48,202 bases of DNA from Candidatus Edwardsbacteria bacterium (GTDB lineage: Bacteria; Edwardsbacteria; AC1; EtOH8), in assembly GCA_018821925.1 (NCBI GenBank), contig JAHJLF010000049.1:1-48202 (forward strand), in the 5' to 3' direction. How positions within the stretch are numbered: the first letter of the stretch is position 1; every line of letters begins with the position of its first letter. Below are positions 8,550 through 48,202 of this stretch, piece after piece. The notes beneath the pieces were generated by a model that was not told where the DNA came from, did no database searches, and saw nothing but the letters and a program-made list of their open reading frames with translations. The position numbers were made by a program, and so were the translations under genes.

Positions 8550-10694
8550 ATGGACTTTTTAGCAAAGCTCAACCCCGAGCAAAAAGAAGCTGTCACCTAT
8601 CTGGAGGGTCCCTTGCTGATACTGGCCGGGGCGGGCTCCGGAAAGACCCGGGTGCTGACTCACCGCCTGGCTTACCTGGTGGGGCAGGGCGTTTGCGCCC
8701 CCTGGGCCATCCTGGCGGTGACCTTTACCAACAAAGCGGCCGGGGAGATGAAAAACCGGGTGGGCCGCTTGATAAATCGCAGCGTGGACGGTCTGTGGGT
8801 AGGGACTTTCCATTCGGTCTGCGCCAGGATACTGCGCAAAGAGGGATATCTCCTGGGATACCAGCGTGATTATACCATCTACGACGAGAATGACAAGCTG
8901 GCCCTGATGAAAAAAGTGATGAGCGCCCTGGCCATCCCGGAACGCAGAGTCCCGGTAAAAGCCGTGATATCACGCATCTCCAGCTCCAAGGACAGCTTGG
9001 TGGGGCCGGAGGAATACCAGAAGATGGCCTACGATTTCTTTGAAAAGGAAGTGGCCAAGATATTTAGCCTCTACCAGCAGGAATTGCTGAAGAACCAAGC
9101 CATGGATTTCGACGATCTGATCTTCAATACCGTAAAAATACTGTCCGGCAATAAAAAGGTTCTAGACGATTACGGCCATAAATTCAAACACATCCTGGTC
9201 GATGAGTATCAGGACACCAACCGCGCCCAATATATGCTGGTAAAACTGCTTTCCCAGAGCCATCGCCAGCTATGTGTGGTGGGCGATGACGACCAGTCTA
9301 TCTACGGCTTCCGGGGGGCGGATATTCGGAATATCCTGGAGTTTGAAAACGATTTTCCCGAGGCCAAGATCGTCCGCCTGGAGCAGAACTACCGCTCCAC
9401 CCAGGTCATTCTGGAATGTGCCAATCAGGTGGTCAAGAACAATGCCGGTCGCAAGGGCAAGGAGTTGTGGACCGACAACCCCAAAGGGGAGAATGTCTCG
9501 CTGTGGTGCGCCTGGGACGAGCGCGACGAGGCCGAAAAGATCTGCCGGGCCATCAAGGAGCATTGGACCAAAGGCTCTTTAAAGGACTGCGTGATACTCT
9601 ACCGCACCAACGCCCAGAGCCGGGCGCTGGAGGACTCCCTGCGGCGAGCAGCGGTGCCCTATCTGATAGTGGGCGGCCTGAAATTCTACGAACGCAAGGA
9701 GATCAAAGATATTTTGGCCTATCTGCGGGTGGTGGTCAACCCGGCGGATGCCGTCGGCTTGAAAAGGATCATAAATATTCCGCCCCGTGGCATTGGCGAC
9801 ACCAGCCTGTCCAGGATTGAATCCTATGCCGCTGAGAGGGATATTTCCCTGTTCCAGGCTCTTAAGGAAAACGACCAGGTGCCCGGACTGGGGCCGGGCA
9901 TAAAATCGGCTGTCAGCGGGTTCGTAAAGGATTTGGAAAAGCTGATAGCCTTAAAAGATTCCTTGAATGCCCAGGAGCTGATCACAAAGGTCATCGAACA
10001 ATCCGGCTATATAAAGTTCATCGGCAGCCAGTATCTGGACAAGGTCGAGGCCGATAGCCGGACCGAGAACGTTCAGGAGCTGGCCTCGGCCGCCAACGAA
10101 TTTTGCGAGCGTTCGGAGGATAAGAGCCTGCCCGCTTTTCTGGCCGAGGTATCCCTGGTGGCCGATATCGACCGCTGGAACGATTCCGCCGAGGCGGTTA
10201 CGCTGATGACCATTCACAACGCCAAAGGGCTGGAATTTCCCCAGGTGTTCATCACCGGGCTGGAGGAGGGGCTGCTGCCGCACCGGGCCTCGCTGGATAC
10301 CATTGAAGAGCTGGAGGAGGAGCGGCGGCTGTTCTATGTGGCCATCACCAGGGCTCAAAACAAGCTGACGCTCTGCTCGGCCATGTCCCGCCGACATTTC
10401 GGCGGACTGATACAATCATTACCCTCCCGCTTCATTGCCGAGCTGCCCAGGGAGAACCTGGATGCCGATTTGCCAAGAAGCGAAAAACAGGCCGGCGATT
10501 TCCCTAGGGAATCCCAGGAGGGAACTCACCAAATCCAGGCCAAGGGCCTCAAGGGTAAGCGGGTACACCATGAGATATGGGGCCAGGGCCAGGTGGTGGA
10601 TGCCGAGGGAGACGGCGATGATGTGAAGCTCTCTATAGTTTTCGGCGGCGGGGTGAAGAAAAAAATAATGGCCGGATTTGTGGAGTTCATGTAA
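8550..10694 (+). CDS. pcrA: ATP-dependent DNA helicase PcrA/UvrD
   Basis: The product is 714 residues, close to the usual 720-740 for PcrA. All superfamily 1A motifs are present: Q motif LNPEQKEAV, Walker A AGAGSGKT at about residue 27, Ia TFTNKAAGEMK, II VDEYQDTN, III GDDDQSIYGFRGAD, IV QNYRST, V TIHNAKGLEFP and VI YVAITRAQ. The last 45 residues (GKRVHHEIWGQGQVVDAEG) are the small Tudor-like C-terminal domain typical of PcrA. The enzyme translocates 3' to 5' on single-stranded DNA in repair, replication-fork clearance and plasmid replication. The ribosome site is weak (AGAAAGA). Confidence 0.97.
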   Translation: MDFLAKLNPEQKEAVTYLEGPLLILAGAGSGKTRVLTHRLAYLVGQGVCAPWAILAVTFTNKAAGEMKNRVGRLINRSVDGLWVGTFHSVCARILRKEGYLLGYQRDYTIYDENDKLALMKKVMSALAIPERRVPVKAVISRISSSKDSLVGPEEYQKMAYDFFEKEVAKIFSLYQQELLKNQAMDFDDLIFNTVKILSGNKKVLDDYGHKFKHILVDEYQDTNRAQYMLVKLLSQSHRQLCVVGDDDQSIYGFRGADIRNILEFENDFPEAKIVRLEQNYRSTQVILECANQVVKNNAGRKGKELWTDNPKGENVSLWCAWDERDEAEKICRAIKEHWTKGSLKDCVILYRTNAQSRALEDSLRRAAVPYLIVGGLKFYERKEIKDILAYLRVVVNPADAVGLKRIINIPPRGIGDTSLSRIESYAAERDISLFQALKENDQVPGLGPGIKSAVSGFVKDLEKLIALKDSLNAQELITKVIEQSGYIKFIGSQYLDKVEADSRTENVQELASAANEFCERSEDKSLPAFLAEVSLVADIDRWNDSAEAVTLMTIHNAKGLEFPQVFITGLEEGLLPHRASLDTIEELEEERRLFYVAITRAQNKLTLCSAMSRRHFGGLIQSLPSRFIAELPRENLDADLPRSEKQAGDFPRESQEGTHQIQAKGLKGKRVHHEIWGQGQVVDAEGDGDDVKLSIVFGGGVKKKIMAGFVEFM

Positions 10695-37532: not shown

Positions 37533-37589
37533 TTGACCTTAAAACAAATCAAGCCCGACCTTTTCCCTCGAAGGTCCGGTAAATATTGT

Positions 37590-37762
37590 GTCAAGGCCGG
37601 TCTCCTGGCTTGCCCGGATCATAAGCGCCTTCCCGTGGTAACAGTGGCATTATGCTTATATCCATTATTTGGGCTTACAGTTGCGGGGCAGCTCCCGATT
37701 TTCTAAAAAATTCAGAGCACGGGATTCCCGATTATCTCCCTTAAATTAGGGAGCACCTTAAC
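37590..37762 (-). promoter_or_regulatory. Cobalamin riboswitch aptamer
   Basis: On the minus strand the conserved parts occur in order: AAGGTGC entry, GGGAATCCCGTG, GAGCTGCCCCGCAACTGTA, the B12 box ATGCCACTG, CGGGAAGGCG, and the closing GATCCGGGCAAGCCAGGAGACCGGC split over the 3' side. P1 closes with GTTAAGG (37762-37756) and CCTTGAC (37596-37590). It senses adenosyl- or methylcobalamin and precedes the B12 uptake operon. Confidence 0.96.
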
Positions 37763-37769
37763 AAACGAG

Positions 37770-37798
37770 ATTATATAAGAAATATTAAATTATGTCAA
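37770..37798 (-). promoter_or_regulatory. Promoter of the cobalamin operon
   Basis: On the minus strand TTGACA (37798-37793), 17 bases, TATAAT (37775-37770). The start point falls at the first base of the riboswitch. Confidence 0.85.
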
Positions 37799-38707: not shown

Positions 38708-39694
38708 ATGAAAATAAGTCCTAAAATATTCCTGCTGTCATCTCTCTTGATGTATACGCTTATCATCACAGCCCATGGGAGGAAAACTATGGAGAATATC
38801 GTTTTTGCCACCTTTGCCCAGGATGAATCCGAACTGGAACAGGCTCTGGTGCTGGCCAGGAGCCTGCGCACTTTTGGCGGAGATATGAAAGAGGCGCCAT
38901 TCTGGCTATACCTTCCGGCCGAATCACCCGAACTGGCGGGGAAGATCGGCGATAGGTCAGCGCCGCTGAATATCAAGGTGCGGACATCCGCCACTCCCGA
39001 AGCGGCCATGGATTACTATTATTCCGGCAAGACCTTCGCCGCCGGCAATGCCGAAGGGGCCGCCGCCGGGAATTTTAAGGTACTGGCCTGGCTGGATGCC
39101 GATAATGTCATCGTCCGGGAGCCGAAGGATTTTCTTATAAAAGACGGGGTTTGCTTCGGCTGGCGGCCGGTGATGCTCAAACTGATCGGTTCGGCCTATA
39201 ATCAGCCGCCCGACGAATTCTGGTCACGATTGTACGCTAAACTCTCCGTAAAGCCGGAAGCGATCTTTCCCGTAACCACGCCGGTGGATAACGAGCAGAT
39301 AAGGGCATATTTCAATGCCGGGATACTGATAGTCCGGCCCGATCGGGGGATCCTGCGAAAATGGCCGGTATTCTATGAAAAGCTATATTCCGATCCATTC
39401 TATCAGGATGAAAGCAAAAAGGATATTAAAAAAAACATCTTCCTGCACCAGACGGCCCTGGCTGGGGCGGTGCTGAATATGCTCAACCGGGATGAGATGG
39501 TCTGTTTCGACGACAGGCACAATTATCCCTTCTTCTTTTTTGAGAAATACCCAGCCCACAAACAACTGAAATCGCTGGATGATGCCGTTACCATCCGACA
39601 TGATGGAGTGATGTATCGAGATAAGGGCTGGAGGGATAAGATGGCGGATACCTCAAAGATCGCCCAGTGGGTAAAAAGTCAATTCTCTCAATAA
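38708..39694 (+). CDS. Glycosyltransferase-like protein (GT-A type DxD), two possible starts
   Basis: The product is 328 residues. The core resembles a nucleotide-sugar-dependent GT-A fold: VFATFAQDESELEQALVLA, the DxD-like D130-x-D132 in AWLDADNVIV, a later YFNAGILIVRP segment and an acidic C-terminal part (FDDRHNYPFFFF). From the first ATG the protein starts with a signal-peptide-like stretch (KIFLLSSLLMYTLIITA). An in-frame ATG at 38789 has a strong GGGAGG 6 bases upstream and would give a cytoplasmic 301-residue enzyme starting MENIVFATF. Both starts are plausible. Donor and acceptor are unknown. The family assignment rests on the DxD and fold pattern only. Confidence 0.65.
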   Translation: MKISPKIFLLSSLLMYTLIITAHGRKTMENIVFATFAQDESELEQALVLARSLRTFGGDMKEAPFWLYLPAESPELAGKIGDRSAPLNIKVRTSATPEAAMDYYYSGKTFAAGNAEGAAAGNFKVLAWLDADNVIVREPKDFLIKDGVCFGWRPVMLKLIGSAYNQPPDEFWSRLYAKLSVKPEAIFPVTTPVDNEQIRAYFNAGILIVRPDRGILRKWPVFYEKLYSDPFYQDESKKDIKKNIFLHQTALAGAVLNMLNRDEMVCFDDRHNYPFFFFEKYPAHKQLKSLDDAVTIRHDGVMYRDKGWRDKMADTSKIAQWVKSQFSQ

Positions 39695-39715
39695 TAATGA
39701 AAATCGGACAAGAAT

Positions 39716-39750
39716 AAAAGAAGCCGTTACGGTTAGTAACGGCTTCTTTT
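39716..39750 (+). terminator. Strong rho-independent terminator
   Basis: A 15-bp perfect stem (AAAAGAAGCCGTTAC / GTAACGGCTTCTTTT) with a 5-base loop, just after the glycosyltransferase-like gene. Confidence 0.9.
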
Positions 39751-39757
39751 ATCAAAC

Positions 39758-39806
39758 TGGTGCGCCATAAAGGACTCGAACCTTTGACCCGCTGATTAAG
39801 AGTCAA
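39758..39806 (-). pseudogene. 3' fragment of tRNA-Lys(CTT): island attachment site
   Basis: On the minus strand the sequence runs from inside the anticodon stem (TTGACTCTTAATCAGC, anticodon CTT) through a perfect T arm (AAAGG-TTCGAGT-CCTTT) to acceptor ATGGCGC, discriminator A and CCA. The D arm and the 5' acceptor strand (expected GCGCCAT) are absent. A tRNA 3' half at the point where base composition changes is the standard scar of site-specific integration. The missing 5' side faces the AT-rich region to the right. Confidence 0.8.
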
Positions 39807-40019
39807 ATCTGGGCCTTTTATAGAAGAATTGTGATTTCAAGGAGTTCATAAAAACAGCTTATCAATTCGGGGGTTATAGTATTTTGTTAATTTTGTGGGC
39901 TTTGTTTATTTATACCAGTATTGCTTCAAACATGGCACAAATTTGGCACAAACGCCCCTCCTTAGGATGAGGGGCGAGGCTTGGTTTTAAAAAATAAGAA
40001 AGGTAAAAGAAAGGAATAT

Positions 40020-40136
40020 ATGATCCATAAGACACTTACATTTCTCCAGGAGCATTTACGGGGAGCTGAGAATAAATTGAATCTATTTAAAAGTGGAATA
40101 ATCCGGCTTCAATACCGGGCTATTCTTTTATGTTGA
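40020..40136 (+). CDS. Possible small peptide or gene remnant
   Basis: ATG at 40020 is preceded by AAAGGA and opens 38 codons starting MIHKTLTFLQEHL. The N-terminus has the look of a real helical protein start, but the frame then runs through a terminator-like hairpin and stops. It may be the truncated beginning of a lost island gene. No function can be assigned. Confidence 0.25.
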   Translation: MIHKTLTFLQEHLRGAENKLNLFKSGIIRLQYRAILLC

Positions 40137-40325
40137 CAAAATGAATATAATGAGAGTATGATATATTTTATTAGGATGTTATTATGTTATATCATGATTA
40201 ACGATGTTTTCATTGAAAATTAAAAAGAAAGTAAAATTAAACATCTATAGTTTTGCTTGATATATTAAATTCTTTTTTGGCAAGTAATAGCTATATCGGT
40301 TCAATCATATACAATTGAATTTTGC

Positions 40326-40354
40326 TTGACACATAATTAAATATATAATAAAAT
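40326..40354 (+). promoter_or_regulatory. Promoter of the ATPase-STAS-PIN unit
   Basis: TTGACA (40326-40331), 17 bases, TAAAAT (40349-40354). The expected start point (about 40361) is only 9-18 bases before the GTG/ATG start codons, in keeping with the lack of a Shine-Dalgarno. Confidence 0.7.
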
Positions 40355-40369
40355 CTTTAATTCATAATT

Positions 40370-41254
40370 GTGGACAAGATGATTTATAACTTCAATAGAA
40401 GAAGCATTAAGAGCGATTATTCGGGATATGAAGAATTAATTAATTTTTTTACAATAACCAGTTCTTTGCAGGCTCAAGATATTCATATTGACTTCAGTAA
40501 TATATTTTTTAATGCTAATCTATGTGCAGTATTAGGAGCAATGTTTGAGGAACTGCAAAAGCGAACGAATAGAATATTTATTCAAAATGTTGATCGAAGA
40601 TTAATAACATTACTTAAGCGGAATAAATTTCTCACTTATTTCGGTAGCCGCGAATTGCCTGATTATTATAAAACAGTTATAAAATACAGCAAGTTCGGTA
40701 TTCATGAATTAAAAATATTTAATGAATACTTGCAAAAAGACTTACTTTCAGCTCAACATATACCACAAATGTCGGAACGACTAACTAAGAAAATTAATGA
40801 AAGTTTACTTGAACTATTTGATAATGCTGTAGCGCATGGTGAATGCGTTAATATTTTTAGCTGCGGTCAATATTATCCCATTCATAAAGCTTTAGATTTT
40901 ACGGTTGTTGATATTGGAACAACTATACAAGAAAATGTGAATAATTATCTGAGAGAAAATTGTTCAGCAACTGAGGCGATTGACTGGGCAGTAAAAGATG
41001 GCAATACTACAAAAATTGGTTCTATTCCGGGTGGCTTGGGGTTATATTTAATACGGGAATTTTTAAAAATCAATAAGGGGAAAATACAAATAATCTCATC
41101 AGATGGTTTTTGGGAAGAAACTAATGGTAAGGTAATAGTGAAAAAATACAGCAATGCTTTCCCAGGAACGATAGTCAACATTGAATTTAATATTGATGAA
41201 AAGTATTATTGTTTTAAATCAGAAATTAATGACATTGAAAACAATTCAACTTAA
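40370..41254 (+). CDS. GHKL ATPase with STAS-like N-terminal region
   Basis: The product is 294 residues from GTG 40370, or 291 from ATG 40379; neither has a ribosome site. The N-terminal half (DIHIDFSNIFFNANLCAVLG ... NVDRRLITLLKRNKFL) has the strand-helix pattern of a STAS-like domain and resembles the next gene's IIDFANIKLLTSIFLNAAIG. The C-terminal half is a histidine-kinase-like ATPase: N box ESLLELFDNAVAHGE, G1 VVDIGTTI and G2 GGLGLYLIREF. There is no HisKA phospho-acceptor domain, so it is not a classical sensor kinase; it is closer to the anti-sigma-kinase type (SpoIIAB/RsbW fold). It is the first gene of a three-gene AT-rich unit with a STAS-like protein and a PIN nuclease. Confidence 0.8.
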   Translation: MDKMIYNFNRRSIKSDYSGYEELINFFTITSSLQAQDIHIDFSNIFFNANLCAVLGAMFEELQKRTNRIFIQNVDRRLITLLKRNKFLTYFGSRELPDYYKTVIKYSKFGIHELKIFNEYLQKDLLSAQHIPQMSERLTKKINESLLELFDNAVAHGECVNIFSCGQYYPIHKALDFTVVDIGTTIQENVNNYLRENCSATEAIDWAVKDGNTTKIGSIPGGLGLYLIREFLKINKGKIQIISSDGFWEETNGKVIVKKYSNAFPGTIVNIEFNIDEKYYCFKSEINDIENNST

Positions 41255-41265
41255 GGATGAAAACA

Positions 41266-41631
41266 ATGTCCGATAAAGAGGAAATACAAATAATAATTTT
41301 TCAAGAAGCTGGTTGCGACGCTGCTGTTTCATACGAGGATGGTAATAATGTTTTTCTTCGTATTGAGCAGGCTTTCACAAACGCTCAAAGTGTTATTATT
41401 GACTTTGCAAATATTAAACTCTTAACTTCAATATTTTTAAATGCCGCAATAGGACAATTGTTTGGTAAATACGATGAGATATATATTCAAACGCATTTAA
41501 AAATAATTAATATATCGGAAGAAGATAATATAACATTTATGAAAGTTATTGAAAGAGCCAAACAATATTTTAATAATAAAAAAAATGATGGGATTGATAG
41601 AAACATCGATAAGGTTATGAATGATGAATAA
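41266..41631 (+). CDS. Small STAS-like protein (DUF4325-like)
   Basis: The product is 121 residues from ATG 41266, which has AAGGA 8 bases upstream; an ATG at 41257 overlaps that site. Core SVIIDFANIKLLTSIFLNAA is the STAS-like strand-turn-helix in which anti-anti-sigma factors carry the phosphorylatable Ser/Thr; several Ser/Thr are available here (L-T-S). The C-terminal 25 residues are Lys/Asn-rich. Its gene overlaps the PIN gene by 11 bases and follows the ATPase gene by 11 bases. A switch partner of the ATPase is the natural reading (inference from SpoIIAA/SpoIIAB-type modules). Confidence 0.7.
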   Translation: MSDKEEIQIIIFQEAGCDAAVSYEDGNNVFLRIEQAFTNAQSVIIDFANIKLLTSIFLNAAIGQLFGKYDEIYIQTHLKIINISEEDNITFMKVIERAKQYFNNKKNDGIDRNIDKVMNDE

Positions 41632-42190
41632 TTGTCATGATATTCGCAGATATAGCCCCAAGAATGATGACAGATTTATTTTAGATACAAATATCTGGGC
41701 TTATCTGTATTGCAATGTGCCTGCAAAGAAATATTTTATACGAGAGTATAGTGGATTTTTTAAGAAAATCATAAATTCTGGTGCATCAATATTTATTTCG
41801 TCGTTAATATTGTCAGAGTTTATTAAAATATACCATCAAATCGAGTTTGAGTATTTAAAATTAAAGGATCCAATGAAATATGTAAACTATAAATCTGACT
41901 ATCGTAATACTCATGATTATTGTGTAGCAATGAAAGGCGTGAAGAATGTTTTGACCAACAATATAATGAAATGTGCAAAACCTATTGATGATAAATTCAA
42001 ATCGATTACTATAGAGCAGTTAATAGATGATGTCGAGAATTGTGATTTTAATGACAAATATCATGCGATTTTAGCAAAAATTGAAAATTTATCACTTGTT
42101 ACTAATGATGGCGATTATCAAAGTAAATCAATTAATAATATAAATATACCGATATATACATGCAACGATAAACTACTAAAGCCGAAATAA
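41621..42190 (+). CDS. PIN-domain nuclease-like protein
   Basis: The product is 189 residues. PIN-type acidic residues are in place: D22 (FILDTNIWAYLY), E66 (LILSEFIK), D142/D145 (CDFNDKYHAI) and D163/D165 (VTNDGD). It is longer than VapC toxins (about 130) because of an insert between E66 and D142. PIN proteins cut RNA, often tRNA or mRNA, in toxin-antitoxin and defence systems. AAGG lies 6 bases before the ATG, and the start lies inside the end of the STAS-like gene, so translation is coupled. No VapB-like antitoxin is next to it; the two upstream genes would have to hold it in check. Confidence 0.8.
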   Translation: MMNNCHDIRRYSPKNDDRFILDTNIWAYLYCNVPAKKYFIREYSGFFKKIINSGASIFISSLILSEFIKIYHQIEFEYLKLKDPMKYVNYKSDYRNTHDYCVAMKGVKNVLTNNIMKCAKPIDDKFKSITIEQLIDDVENCDFNDKYHAILAKIENLSLVTNDGDYQSKSINNINIPIYTCNDKLLKPK

Positions 42191-42450: not shown

Positions 42451-44010
42451 ATGAAACTATCCGACATTTGCTTCGAGTGGCACCTTGCTAATAAAGTTAG
42501 TAAAGTTTTGATTCAGGAGTGTGTTGATCTCTTTTCTGCACACTATGGTATATGGGGGAAGACGGCACCTTATGGCTTAACTCCTGGAGAGCGAGTCCGT
42601 CTCTCCCCGAAGCGGATGAGTGCTCTTTTGACTGGCCCTGATACTTGGCTTGCTCTCGCGCGTCACGAAGACTACCTGGTTGGTTACGCTGTTGCAGTTC
42701 AGGCCATCGTTCCGGATAAAGGAATCTTGTCGTGGGTTTCACAATTAGTTGTTCATTCAAAATATCAAGGAATGGGTATTGCCAAGAATCTTCTGGCGTC
42801 TGTATATGGATTCTCTGATCACTTTTCGTGGGGGCTTGTCACTGCCAATCCCAAGGCCGTTAGGGCATTGGAGAAGGCAACTCGACGTAGAGTGGACCCA
42901 TCTATGGTATATACACATTCAGACTTGCTAAGGGCGTTCGCCAAAGAACACGTTCCATATGTTGGTGAAGGTATTTTTCGTTGTGATGAGACTCGATCTG
43001 TTGTAGACACATCCTTCCATCTCGATCTCGACGAACTTGACTCTCTTATTATGGCAACGTCCGATGTGAGTAAGGAGCCATGGAAATTGGGTGAGCTTGA
43101 AGCCGGAGAAGAGTGGATAGCGTTTACCTTCAACGAACAAAAGCCGTTTCCAATTACTTGCTCAGACCTTGACATACTTCTCCAGCATTCCGAACAAAAG
43201 CTATGGCAAGCTTTCGAACGCATGACGCTTGACGACAACCATCGTTGGATGAAATTCGCTGCGGAAGAGGTCAAATACCTAATGGAGACCTACGAAATAT
43301 GTCCAGGCTCTCGAATTCTTGATCTTGGTTGTGGTACGGGTCGCCATTCCCTCGAAATGGCCAGGATGGGGATGGACGTCATTGGAGTTGATTTTATTAC
43401 AATGTTTATTCAAAAGGCTAAAGAAAGAGCGGCCATACAAAAACTTCACTCTTGCTCCTTCTATATTGGTGACGTGCGAAATCTTGACTTTGATCATACA
43501 AGGTTCGATGTTGTACTTGCTCTATACGACGTCGTTGGATCCTTTGCAAGCGAAGAAGAGAATATGGCAATTTTAAGGACTATTGTGAATCGATTGACTC
43601 CTGGTGGCCTTGCAGTAATTTCAGTGATGAATATGCACCGAACCGAGCATAACGCACTTTTCCGTGCTTCATTGAGAGATAATCCAGAAGAACTCTTCCG
43701 TCTTCCTCCAAGTAGCACGATGGAGTCGTCTGGAAATGTATTTGATCCGAGATACTATCTAGTAGATTCTTATTCTGGCGTTGTCTATCGTCGGGAGCAG
43801 TTTAGTCGTGGAGAGCAGCTTCCAACCGAGATTATTGTGCGTGATAAGCGATATACAAGGGAATCCATTGCTAGTCTTGTGAGGGAGAGTGGTCTTGAGA
43901 TCCTTAACGTTCGATATGTTCGCGCAGGTCAATTCGATAAGGAAATAGACCCCGTGAAAGCCAAAGAAATATTGGTAATAGCAAGGTCTCCAGTAATAAA
44001 AAACGTTTGA
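42451..44010 (+). CDS. GNAT acetyltransferase-SAM methyltransferase fusion
   Basis: The product is 519 residues. An N-terminal GNAT domain covers about 1-170 with the acetyl-CoA loop at Q106-G-M-G (VVHSKYQGMGIAKNLL). A linker of about 100 residues contains a WMKFAAEE helix. A class I methyltransferase domain follows from about 280 with motif I LDLGCGTGRHS at about 290, acidic VIGVDF, a GDVRNLDF loop and TPGGLAVISVM. The C-terminus ends in a strand (ILVIARSPV). Substrates are unknown; the fusion suggests two modifications of one substrate. Codon use and GC content are clearly higher than in both neighbours, so it probably joined the island separately. The ribosome site is weak. Confidence 0.85.
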   Translation: MKLSDICFEWHLANKVSKVLIQECVDLFSAHYGIWGKTAPYGLTPGERVRLSPKRMSALLTGPDTWLALARHEDYLVGYAVAVQAIVPDKGILSWVSQLVVHSKYQGMGIAKNLLASVYGFSDHFSWGLVTANPKAVRALEKATRRRVDPSMVYTHSDLLRAFAKEHVPYVGEGIFRCDETRSVVDTSFHLDLDELDSLIMATSDVSKEPWKLGELEAGEEWIAFTFNEQKPFPITCSDLDILLQHSEQKLWQAFERMTLDDNHRWMKFAAEEVKYLMETYEICPGSRILDLGCGTGRHSLEMARMGMDVIGVDFITMFIQKAKERAAIQKLHSCSFYIGDVRNLDFDHTRFDVVLALYDVVGSFASEEENMAILRTIVNRLTPGGLAVISVMNMHRTEHNALFRASLRDNPEELFRLPPSSTMESSGNVFDPRYYLVDSYSGVVYRREQFSRGEQLPTEIIVRDKRYTRESIASLVRESGLEILNVRYVRAGQFDKEIDPVKAKEILVIARSPVIKNV

Positions 44011-44367: not shown

Positions 44368-44748
44368 ATGGATAAAGAAATCAAATATATATACCTAGCA
44401 CATCCATTTACTGACAATTATGAATATAATATTAAAAGAGTGACTGCTATAGCAAATGCTATTGTAAAACATTCGATAGATAATCCAGATTGTTTTTTTG
44501 CTCCTATAGTTCCACATTTAATTTTATCGGTGTTTAATGAGGAGAAGGACAATTCCGTAAGATCATACACAGAAGAAATAAGTAAAAATTTAGTACTTTT
44601 CTGTGACGAATTATGGCTTGTTTCAGATATCATCTCAAAGGGTATGCAGTTAGAAATACAATCAGCTCAGGAAAACACCATACCTATAAGAAAATGGTCA
44701 GAAATTAAATTAATAGTACCTATACTATGTCAATTTGATAATATTTAA
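44368..44748 (+). CDS. Nucleoside 2-deoxyribosyltransferase-like protein (DUF4406-like)
   Basis: The product is 126 residues. The pattern IYLAHPF, ANAIVKHS, FFAPIVPHLIL, a short polar stretch, then CDELWLVSDIISKGMQLEIQ and a final IPI strand is that of the nucleoside 2-deoxyribosyltransferase / DUF4406 fold. In that fold an acidic residue attacks the deoxyribose of a nucleoside or nucleotide (compare DNPH1-type hydrolases). The Glu in GMQLEIQ is the likely nucleophile. It is the first gene of a tight three-gene unit, 24 bases before the dGTPase-like gene. Confidence 0.75.
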   Translation: MDKEIKYIYLAHPFTDNYEYNIKRVTAIANAIVKHSIDNPDCFFAPIVPHLILSVFNEEKDNSVRSYTEEISKNLVLFCDELWLVSDIISKGMQLEIQSAQENTIPIRKWSEIKLIVPILCQFDNI

Positions 44749-44772
44749 CTTGTTATTATTTTAAGGAATAAA

Positions 44773-46125
44773 ATGTCTTATCTTGAGATAGAAAAAATTA
44801 AAGAAAAAAATATTGTTCCATGGGCCGCAACGTGCGAGAAATATAATAATGATCCTGATGAAAGAAGAAGTGCATTTAAACATGATGAGGATGAGTTTAT
44901 TTATTCATCTGCGTTACGTAGACTTGCGGATAAAACCCAAATAGTGGTTAAGCCAGAATTTGTTGAGCAATACCGATCTAGATTAACGCATACTTTAGAG
45001 GTACAGCAAATAGCAGAAAGTATAGGTTCACATCTTTCCTTAAATAATGAACTTATTAATGCTATTGCGTGTGGTCATGATTTGGGCCATTGCCCATATG
45101 GCCATGCAGGAGAAAGAGCCATACAAGGAATATTTAAAGCGAATATACTACCGTTATGTGATCTTGGGAAACTTAAAATTAATTTAACAGAAGCATTATA
45201 TTTTTACAATATAAAGGTAAAAATAAAGCGTGAAATACAACCATATTATTTATTTCACCATGCTGTTAATTCGGTTAGAATAATCGAAAGGAAGATGAAA
45301 GGTATAGGATTTATAACAAAAAGGGGAATTATTACTCATAGTTGGAGTCCATGGCAGAATCAAAGCAAAATAAAATATGGTATCCCAGATACACTTGAGG
45401 CACAAGCTGTTGCTATAGCTGATCAGATTGCTGGTATAAATCATGATACCGAGGATATTTTAAATTGTAAGGAATCAGATTATGATATTGATAAAATAAA
45501 AAAAGCCGGATCAAAACATATAGATAATAAGGGTTATTTGAAATATTCTGATGCGTATGCGATATTCAACGAATGGTTTTTAACAACGGAATCTACTCAT
45601 ATAAATGGATGGGGGCGTAAAAAAAGGTTAAGAAATATAATCAATAGTGTTATTGATTACTCTTCGGATGAGATTTACAAATATTATATTGCAAAGGAAC
45701 CAAGAAGATATGGAGAAGAACCTGTACTTCAATTAGATAAAAACATTAAATCTTTCTTATCTGGATATGAGTCTTTTATCCGTAGCGAAATAATACAAGT
45801 AAAGAATTGTTTTAAACAAAGAGACGCACAGGCAGAAGCTGAAATAGGAACGGCATTTAATTTTTTTAAAATAAGAGATGAAAATGATCAAACAAATATT
45901 AAGGAAAAGGAGAAAGAGTGCATAAATGCATTTAAATTATCGATAAGCGATGATAGATATAACGAGGATAAAATATTTATTGCTTTTATAAATAGTTTAA
46001 AAAAACATAATGGAGATAAATTACGACATTACCTTGAGATAATTGATTTTGTGTGTGGTATGACAGACACATATTTGCATAAAATCATAGGTATTGCCAA
46101 TGAGCAGTTCAATAACAGTAAATAA
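44773..46125 (+). CDS. HD-domain dNTP triphosphohydrolase (dGTPase-like)
   Basis: The product is 450 residues, AAGGA 5 bases before the ATG. The dGTPase family features are present: FIYSSALRRLADKTQI, metal ligand H73 in SRLTHTLEV, H102-D103 in CGHDLGHCPYGHAGE, a later ligand Asp in EAQAVAIADQIAGINHD, and the family's aromatic FHHAVNSVRI. Such enzymes hydrolyse dGTP (or other dNTPs) to the nucleoside and triphosphate. Homologues limit phage and viral replication by draining dNTPs. Here the gene is an AT-rich island gene between a deoxyribosyltransferase-like and an RlmN-like gene, unlike a housekeeping dgt. Confidence 0.88.
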   Translation: MSYLEIEKIKEKNIVPWAATCEKYNNDPDERRSAFKHDEDEFIYSSALRRLADKTQIVVKPEFVEQYRSRLTHTLEVQQIAESIGSHLSLNNELINAIACGHDLGHCPYGHAGERAIQGIFKANILPLCDLGKLKINLTEALYFYNIKVKIKREIQPYYLFHHAVNSVRIIERKMKGIGFITKRGIITHSWSPWQNQSKIKYGIPDTLEAQAVAIADQIAGINHDTEDILNCKESDYDIDKIKKAGSKHIDNKGYLKYSDAYAIFNEWFLTTESTHINGWGRKKRLRNIINSVIDYSSDEIYKYYIAKEPRRYGEEPVLQLDKNIKSFLSGYESFIRSEIIQVKNCFKQRDAQAEAEIGTAFNFFKIRDENDQTNIKEKEKECINAFKLSISDDRYNEDKIFIAFINSLKKHNGDKLRHYLEIIDFVCGMTDTYLHKIIGIANEQFNNSK

Positions 46126-46152
46126 TAAAAAGGTTATTATATTATAATAAAT

Positions 46153-47061
46153 ATGGGTACATTGACAAATTATAAAATATCTTCTGACGGTTCGAAGAAA
46201 TATATTTGGGAAACAGAGGATGGCTTGCATTATGAATCCGCTCTGGTTGATTTAGATTATAGAACCCCAAATAAAGTAATTTGCGTATCATCAGCTATCG
46301 GTTGTACTATAGGTTGTAAGTTTTGCAAAACAGGGCAAAAATACCATAGAAATTTAAATAATAGAGAAATCATTGAACAAATAGAAAATATTATACAACA
46401 TGATAGACTAAAAAGTGCATCATCTTCTAAAATGTTCGAAATTAGTTTTATGGCGATGGGTGAACCCCTTTTGAATTACAATAATCTAATAAAAACATTC
46501 GATTGGCTTGGAAAAGAGTATGGTGATAATCTTGAAGTAACGGTATCTACTGCAGGCCTAGTAAATAAAATATATGAACTTGCTGAACTAAATTATCCTT
46601 TTAGTATCGATTTGCAGATATCATTACATTCTACTGATCAGTATTTGAGAAATAAGTTAATGCCAGGTTTAAGAGACAATATTAAAGATATTATTAATGC
46701 ATCTGAATATTATGCTAGGAAGGTTAAAAGAAAGGTCTGCATTAATTACTTATTGCTTAATAATGTTAATGATAGTGAGAAAGAGCTAAGGGCCTTACAT
46801 AAATTATTGAACCCAAAATATCATTATGTAAAATTATCAGAAATAAATTCTAATAGCTCACACTTTAGTAAGCCTCCCGATAGCAAATATAAAATATTTT
46901 ATAATTTCCTTTTAAGTAAAAATATTGAGACAAAATTGTTTAAAAGCAAAGGTGTTGACATCGGAGCTGGATGTGGGCAATTATCTGCAGCAGAGGATAT
47001 AAGGTTAACATCTTTAAATTATAATAGAACAAATTCGAAGAAAATCAATACAGTATTTTAA
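46153..47061 (+). CDS. Short RlmN/Cfr-family radical SAM methyltransferase
   Basis: The product is 302 residues. The radical SAM cluster motif is C51-x3-C55-x2-C58 (GCTIGCKFC). The RlmN/Cfr-specific pieces are also present: C44 in ICVSSAIGC, the GMGEP-like AMGEPLLN, LQISLHS and the methyl-carrying C274 in GAGCGQL. Both mechanistic cysteines of the family are therefore kept and the enzyme should methylate an adenine in RNA (C2 or C8). It lacks the N-terminal accessory domain (about 80-90 residues) that RlmN uses to bind 23S rRNA/tRNA, so its target may differ. It begins 27 bases after the dGTPase-like gene with no close ribosome site. Confidence 0.85.
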   Translation: MGTLTNYKISSDGSKKYIWETEDGLHYESALVDLDYRTPNKVICVSSAIGCTIGCKFCKTGQKYHRNLNNREIIEQIENIIQHDRLKSASSSKMFEISFMAMGEPLLNYNNLIKTFDWLGKEYGDNLEVTVSTAGLVNKIYELAELNYPFSIDLQISLHSTDQYLRNKLMPGLRDNIKDIINASEYYARKVKRKVCINYLLLNNVNDSEKELRALHKLLNPKYHYVKLSEINSNSSHFSKPPDSKYKIFYNFLLSKNIETKLFKSKGVDIGAGCGQLSAAEDIRLTSLNYNRTNSKKINTVF

Positions 47062-47079
47062 TTATATGAGTATTGATTT

Positions 47080-47919
47080 ATGAGAAAAATTCTCTTCTAT
47101 ATTATTTCCCTCCTCTCTTTTTCCCTTCTAAACGCCCAACAAGAAGCAACAACATCTGATGGAAAGAAAGTAATCCTCTTTGAGGATGGAACCTGGCAAT
47201 ATGCTGTTTACATTACTGAAATAAAACCCGTACATATTGATTTCCTTGAAATCCCGGAAAATCCCTCTTCTTGCCAAATGGTGGTTCATGCAGGGTATAC
47301 TCTTTCATATAATGAGGAGCATGAGCAGGCCAATTGGGTGGCTTATGAATTGACTGAGAAAGAGACAGAAGGGAAGCATAAGAGGACGAATAAATTCATT
47401 GTGGATCCGGATATCTCAACTGGATCAGCAACCAGCAAAGATTATAAGAAATCAGGCTATGATCAGGGACATTTAGTGCCGGCCGCGGATATGGCCTGGT
47501 CCCAAACTGCAATGACGGAATCGTTTTATTACAGCAACATGAGTCCCCAGGAACCAAGCTTCAATCGCGGTATTTGGAAGAAGCTGGAAGAACAGGTCAG
47601 GGGGTGGGCAAGAGAGAATAATGCAATATATGTCATTACAGGGCCTGTATTGACTGATGGATTGCCCACCATAGGCCCAAATAAGGTCTCTGTGCCCAAG
47701 TATTATTACAAAGTGATATTGGACTATACTCTCCCCGAAATAAAGGCTATTGGCTTTATAATGCCCAACGCGGGGTCATCAGAGCCATTACAGAGCTACA
47801 CAGTGACTGTGGACAGTGTTGAAAAGTTTACTGGGATAGACTTCTTTTATCGGCTTCCGGATGACCAGGAGAAGATAATAGAAAGTATTCTTGATGTCGG
47901 GGCCTGGTTTAAAGAATAG
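47080..47919 (+). CDS. Exported NucA-type DNA/RNA non-specific endonuclease
   Basis: The product is 279 residues with a signal peptide (about 1-19). A short N-terminal module (DGKKVILFEDGTWQYA) precedes the beta-beta-alpha-metal nuclease: catalytic motif D128-Q-G-H131 (YDQGHLVPAADM, where DRGH is usual), metal-ligand Asn in FNRGIWKKLE (N162) and a typical IYVITGPVL strand. The family cuts DNA and RNA without sequence preference, mostly outside the cell or in the periplasm. Composition is between that of the island and the chromosome. The Gln for Arg in DRGH is a known natural variation. Confidence 0.9.
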   Translation: MRKILFYIISLLSFSLLNAQQEATTSDGKKVILFEDGTWQYAVYITEIKPVHIDFLEIPENPSSCQMVVHAGYTLSYNEEHEQANWVAYELTEKETEGKHKRTNKFIVDPDISTGSATSKDYKKSGYDQGHLVPAADMAWSQTAMTESFYYSNMSPQEPSFNRGIWKKLEEQVRGWARENNAIYVITGPVLTDGLPTIGPNKVSVPKYYYKVILDYTLPEIKAIGFIMPNAGSSEPLQSYTVTVDSVEKFTGIDFFYRLPDDQEKIIESILDVGAWFKE

Positions 47920-47972
47920 TAAGCTTGCTCTTTGTAATATAATCCCGCAATTCAAAATGGAGAAGATCAAAG

Positions 47973-48202
47973 ATGAAACAAAAACTCGTTCTCCTCTTGA
48001 GTTCCATTCTATTTGTGGGACTCTTTGCAAATAATTCTTTTGGGCAGGATGATCAAACAGTTTATGTTACAAGAACAGGTGCTAAATATCACCGGGTAAC
48101 TTGCAGCTATCTTCGCCAGAGTTCAATACCAATGAAACTGTCAGAAGCAGTTAATTATTATGGTCCTTGTTCAAGATGCCATCCCCCCGTGTTAAACAAT
48201 CA
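47973..48202 (+). CDS. Small exported protein with Cys motif, 3' end outside the window
   Basis: The frame opens at ATG 47973 and is still open at the window end (76 codons visible). A signal peptide (MKQKLVLLLSSILFVGLFA) is followed by VYVTRTGAKYHRVTCSYLRQ and GPCSRCHPP. The pattern TG..YHR..C.YL...C..C.PP is a small putative metal-binding module found at the ends of secreted nucleases and competence-type proteins. It follows the exported nuclease by 53 bases on the same strand and may act with it (inference). Confidence 0.8.
   Translation, partial: MKQKLVLLLSSILFVGLFANNSFGQDDQTVYVTRTGAKYHRVTCSYLRQSSIPMKLSEAVNYYGPCSRCHPPVLNN

Follow-up and report, generated by a model that had tools for sequence, protein, structure and literature searches.

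A tRNA-Lys(CTT) 3' fragment that very probably marks the outer attachment site of a genomic island in an uncultured bacterium

Islander-type islands in tRNA genes (tDNA islands) combine an intact tRNA gene with a 3' fragment in the same orientation, a tyrosine integrase and a site in the anticodon loop, and in Islander those with 3' fragments (3760) far outnumber those with 5' fragments (159) (PMC4383910). At tRNA genes, elements of reversed orientation leave the 5' part as the fragment (Zhao and Williams 2002, as cited in PMC6563490). The locus described here shares these Islander-type features, the common orientation of gene and fragment being seen on one contig in a relative (G001), and differs in that its own ends lie on separate contigs and its host is uncultured. 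Its integrase also has relatives that resemble the reversed-orientation elements: 17 of 47 face the 5' end of a tRNA gene and one genome (G098) carries a 5' fragment, whereas the lineage of the window itself has the usual orientation and a 3' fragment. The window, i.e. the whole stretch of 48,202 nucleotides analysed, is the entire contig C49 of genome G000 (2.44 Mb, 95 contigs), from an uncultured bacterium that belongs, with UBP2_UBA4780 (G005 below), to one family.

A preliminary description of the window had placed a tRNA-Lys(CTT) 3' fragment at 39758-39806; the identity is right, and the coordinates were shifted by one, the real block being 39757-39805. The fragment and the features around it are as follows:

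39720..39753, no strand assigned: hairpin and T run, terminator-like, just outside the tRNA 3' end (by eye).
39757..39805, minus strand: 3' fragment of tRNA-Lys(CTT), very probably attR, the outer attachment site; over 49 bp the same as the intact gene of contig C93.
39806..40149, plus strand: attachment-arm DNA conserved with genome G001 (39756-40149 vs G001:C5 281.16-281.55 kb, 86.5%).
39933..39953, plus strand: twin repeat of sequence TGGCACAAATTTGGCACAAAC, putatively an arm site for the integrase, with counterparts at C93:10128 and in relatives.
40370..41254, plus strand: GHKL-type ATPase (motifs by eye; no Pfam family; phrog_3364, function unknown, 1.6e-36).
41257..41631, plus strand: STAS-like protein (Pfam DUF4325, 1.3e-13).
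41621..42190, plus strand: PIN-domain protein (Pfam PIN, 1.7e-6).
42451..44010, plus strand: GNAT-methyltransferase fusion, G+C 0.45 (Pfam Methyltransf_31, 4.3e-20; Acetyltransf_1, 6.7e-6).
44368..44748, plus strand: DUF7768 protein, deoxyribosyltransferase-like (Pfam DUF7768, 3.3e-16; phrog_355, 2.4e-11).
44773..46125, plus strand: dGTPase-like HD-domain protein (Pfam HD, 9.7e-10; PADLOC dGTPase, 4.7e-42; no NCBIfam cut-off reached).
46153..47061, plus strand: RlmN-like radical SAM protein without the RlmN N-terminal part (TIGR00048, 7.9e-62, profile 72-349 of 355).
47080..47919, plus strand: non-specific endonuclease, conserved backbone by the cargo slot (Pfam Endonuclease_NS, 1.1e-57; in two of eight genomes).

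The block consists of 48 bases counted inward from CCA, with the inner limit just ahead of the anticodon loop (7 nt, at 39796-39802), plus one base past CCA. It reproduces the gene's 3' part without a mismatch over 49 bases, which bears out the earlier reading of a fragment that reaches CCA and lacks the tRNA 5' half. ARAGORN found four tRNAs in the window and none at 39757-39805, where Rfam gave a sub-threshold tRNA match only (16.5 bits vs a gathering threshold of 29). A 39-bp piece of the fragment gave a single match in the window and no match in 100 shuffles (up to 3 mismatches). A 52-bp pattern searched in the own genome with the same tolerance was found at two sites, one in the window without any mismatch and one at C93:10214-10265 with 3, which are confined to the 5' end of the pattern. 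The latter interval lies within an intact tRNA-Lys(CTT) whose acceptor begins GCGCCAT, the only other copy of the block found in G000 at up to 3 mismatches; a second copy in just such a gene had been predicted from the window. Partial tRNA genes are known in prokaryote genomes (PMC9897764), and a chance pseudogene or partial duplication with no island behind it would be of that kind. We consider this extremely improbable and rejected it, given the shuffles and the finding of the predicted partner with an integrase beside it; the same layout in G001 and a displaced flank in genomes G006 and G009 (see below) speak against it as well.

The G+C content falls from 0.468 at 39001-40000 to 0.289 at 40001-41000. 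The preliminary description had set the turn to AT-rich DNA at 39807; the change is real but does not fall exactly there, and ~344 bp of conserved arm DNA come first after the block. Within this stretch, 42451-44010 (0.45) and 47080-47919 (0.43) are not strongly AT-rich. As had been expected, the DNA beyond the missing 5' side of the fragment is low in G+C and looks foreign. To the left of the island, a cobalamin riboswitch was found at 37578-37775 (minus strand).

The intact gene on C93 shows the matching asymmetry, with G+C per kilobase of ~0.29-0.46 on its 3' side and ~0.50-0.56 on its 5' side, where the first gene is one that we take to be larA. The expected integrase gene was also found there: inside the interval, to the island side of the intact gene, C93:8262-9314 encodes a tyrosine integrase of 350 aa (Phage_integrase, 1e-38) that is aimed at the tRNA 3' end and stops ~900 bp short of the tRNA. 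It shares 98% identity with the integrase of genome G002, and the integrase module compares with G001 at 81-83%. A 67-aa HTH_17 protein (1.7e-11) encoded directly upstream is probably excisionase-like. The integrase and the tRNA are separated by two small genes (9315-10213; L003). This two-gene cassette probably entered the tail of the integrase, because the translated stretch YGTNKAQTVKEGPSQ adjoining the C93 tRNA resembles the integrase tail of G005, in which the integrase abuts the tRNA and the cassette is absent. Together, the island pieces on C49 and C93 amount to 18.6 kb; a search for an exact end overlap of 15-300 bp between the two contigs found none, and they were not joined.

Thus, G000 contains both an intact tRNA gene and a fragment reaching the end of that gene, located on two contigs, and the arrangement on one replicon is seen in G001, where an intact tRNA-Lys (C5:202269) is followed downstream by a 3' fragment (C5:281501) on the same contig, in the same orientation and 79 kb away. 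The intact gene had been predicted beyond the right end of the window; G001 displays this orientation on one contig, and in G000 the two parts sit on separate contigs. Among the 10 genomes searched, the block was present in nine, with two copies in G000, G001 and G006, one in six genomes and none in G008. The gene on the left flank of the fragment has matches in four of 98 genomes, including its own.

Agreement between fragment and gene starts 3 (G000), 1 (G001) and 0 (G006) bases before the 7-nt loop CTCTTAA (tRNA strand). Since in all three the agreement takes in the loop and what follows it, these alignments place the crossover in the anticodon loop. A twin repeat lies inside both ends, its copies reading TGGCACAAATTTGGCACAAA (window 39933) and TGGCACAAATAAGGCACAAA (C93 10128), and with 3 mismatches allowed it occurs at both G001 ends and adjoins the intact tRNA in G002, G005 and G006. 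When up to 2 mismatches are allowed, it matches the window once (shuffle mean 0.06; at least one match in 5 of 100 shuffles). The strict repeat was found in five of 47 loci of related integrases (L094, L095, L098, L102 and L129), between the integrase match and the tRNA in four of them and inside the integrase tail in L095; L100 carries a near-identical one. The twin repeats are putatively arm-type integrase sites.

We conclude that the fragment is very probably the attR of a genomic island placed in tRNA-Lys(CTT) by a tyrosine integrase. This follows from the duplication of the block, the intact gene with an integrase beside it, the paired arm repeats and the presence of both ends on one contig in G001, and further from the displaced flank in G006/G009, the exchange of cargo between similar ends and the low G+C on the inner sides. 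The island would have brought its own copy of the tRNA 3' part, and a crossover in the 7-nt anticodon loop would have joined this copy to the host 5' half; the intact gene would then come to lie at the integrase end (C93), with the original 3' part of the host pushed to the window position. We infer the chemistry of the exchange, the present mobility of the element and the continuity of the island between C49 and C93.

A comparison with island-free relatives had been proposed, and a sister genus offers one. In G009, of the sister genus g4, the intact tRNA-Lys is followed by the DNA and genes that lie outside the fragment in G006 (~82-87% over longer pieces), and upstream of the tRNA the two genomes match over ~20 bp only. 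This shift of the flank is the displacement expected of an insertion, seen in a sister genus and not in the genus of the window. An empty site carrying the window's own flanks was not found among the relatives compared. G003 was tried as an empty site and rejected; the DNA past its tRNA matches the 238-241 kb block of G001, not the outer flank of the window.

The 79-kb interval of G001 includes bactofilin, PilMN and secretin genes, which argue against one clean island, and part of this block follows the intact tRNA-Lys of G003 without a window-type integrase. Another segment of the interval matches contig C2 of G002. A search of G000 for homologues of the 210-220 kb segment of G001, run without a positive control, found none. 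PilMN at 40% identity or more was found in G001, G003 and G006 among 10 genomes, with weaker matches in others. The entire interval was therefore not accepted as one clean 79-kb island, owing to its chromosome-like blocks and the segments shared with G003 and G002. Two Rhs-repeat proteins (2431 and 1729 aa) flank the bactofilin block (L041 2805-10100; L040 12967-18156). Directly outside the G001 fragment lies a large serine recombinase gene (G001:C5 281516-283114; L032 517-2115), the 3' end of which overlaps the fragment; ~17 kb separate it from the left-flank gene, and this may be a second element. In G006, the integrase is near the fragment and not near the intact tRNA, and ~157 kb of contig extend inward of the fragment; its integrase module (G006:C14; L036 5284-8989) is aimed at the side on which the fragment is cut short, opposite to the arrangement in G000, G001 and G002. 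The mosaic interval of G001, the serine recombinase and the odd layout of G006 together identify the site as a hotspot with a mosaic history.

An alternative reading is that an older insertion left the fragment as a scar, that the cargo is a defence hotspot grown beside it, and that C93 belongs to a separate element with chromosome in between. The chromosome-like blocks in the G001 interval are in line with this, as is the location of parts of that region on contigs C53 and C54 in G000, C54 having chromosome-like G+C and a tRNA-Val. The wholly different cargo of G000 and G001 would fit as well. Nevertheless, the arm by the fragment is conserved, its twin repeat matches the repeat at the integrase end in both G000 and G001, and the orientation is that expected of a single insertion, so we hold an older scar to be quite unlikely and retain the island with attR at the fragment.

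The window from 47129 to 48202, which takes in most of the endonuclease, matches G001 at 90%, and the ~7 kb between the arm and the endonuclease have no DNA similarity to G001. In the latter, the slot beside the fragment contains a short Argonaute (PADLOC pAgo_I, 1.5e-167) and its TIR partner (Aga_TIR, 2.6e-64), a pair (L042 18362-19915 and L031 17758-19122) that is presumably of the SPARTA type and is absent from the window. Given different cargo in G000 and G001 between otherwise similar ends, the slot takes up different cargo. In the window, the DUF7768, dGTPase-like and RlmN-like genes stand in a row (44368-47061) with G+C near 0.30. dGTPases act against phages by nucleotide depletion. The window protein matches the PADLOC dGTPase profile and differs from the known defence enzymes in falling below every NCBIfam cut-off listed and in standing with DUF7768 and RlmN-like genes, and its function is a predicted one; the RlmN-like protein likewise scores 209 bits against TIGR00048 vs a cut-off of 290. 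PADLOC named no known system beyond weak matches for the ATPase, STAS, PIN, DUF7768 and RlmN-like proteins. A defence role of the window cargo genes is plausible, and the trio is possibly a candidate nucleotide-depletion defence set. Two short single-sequence peptide pattern scans found no relatives of the trio in viral contigs. Plasmid or phage records matching the trio peptides numbered 233, 245 and 25, and each of the seven examined matched just one of the three genes.

As to the class of the element, Pfam named no relaxase or type IV secretion genes among 10 C93 proteins and the eight window proteins right of the fragment, which represent an incomplete island; these were looked for as marks of an integrative and conjugative element, and HerA/DUF87-like ATPases are present. 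As to virion structural and packaging genes, the marks of a prophage, PHROGs, applied to 10 proteins of this incomplete island, gave integrase matches and a weak terminase match (3.2e-6) for a HerA-like ATPase. In the G001 interval, 19 of ~80 ORFs were scanned by Pfam. We regard the element as an ordinary, well-marked tDNA island; the by-product of most interest is the mixed orientation seen among the relatives of its integrase.

This family was sampled as 47 loci (L094-L140) from a scan of genome contigs. Seventeen face the 5' end of a tRNA and nine, with the window's lineage among them, the 3' end, these 26 being the loci with a tRNA gene that begins no more than 700 bp past the integrase match; five have the tRNA upstream of the integrase and 16 have none within 700 bp, as counted by ARAGORN in its default circular mode, which wraps round the ends and makes the upstream tRNA of L137 an artefact. 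L094 is on the same contig as G001 and L095 is the same DNA as the G005 locus (identical over the stretches compared), so these two are not independent of the relatives above. The mix of orientations is clearest at L100, L105/L143 and L146; L100 shares 42 identical tRNA bases with the tRNA-Lys(CTT) gene of the window, yet its integrase approaches the gene at the 5' end. The 5'-type genome G098 has an exact 5' part of tRNA-Arg(CCG) on another contig that ends one base past the anticodon loop, with an inner-side repeat resembling one on the integrase side (by eye). The G098-type tRNA pattern matched four of 11 genomes, two of them with a second copy, and the second copy of the tRNA-Arg(CCG) pattern in G099 ends at a contig edge. 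No far-end tRNA fragments were found within the flanks covered for the 26 loci that have a tRNA close by or in a further stretch of L097.

An integrase tree was built from 28 of the 47 loci, minus L112 and L115 (too short) and plus G000, G002 and G006, giving 29 rows, 18 of them labelled. The clade of the window is fully supported, and support for its nesting among 5'-type rows is moderate at the forks concerned (83/91 to 90/91, not starred); other 3'-type rows fall outside. The labels require at least 2 changes, and none of 200 bootstrap trees allowed 1, yet the starred branches alone are compatible with one origin. We lean slightly towards the view that one integrase family can reverse which tRNA half is duplicated, in that a near-symmetric anticodon arm may let the attachment core flip relative to the integrase arms. 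A literature search by title and abstract, with Zhao and Williams 2002 and Williams 2002 outside its scope, found no description of one integrase family in both orientations, and we do not claim that it is unpublished.

From the 49-base scar alone, the polarity of the island, the identity of a gene off the contig and its acceptor stem were deduced correctly, and such tRNA scars are good markers in broken assemblies. At tRNA genes, where 5' fragments are rare, the relatives of this integrase are a natural test case for what determines in which orientation an element integrates. In these little-studied uncultured bacteria, the island family combines a mapped insertion site with a slot for varied candidate defence genes.
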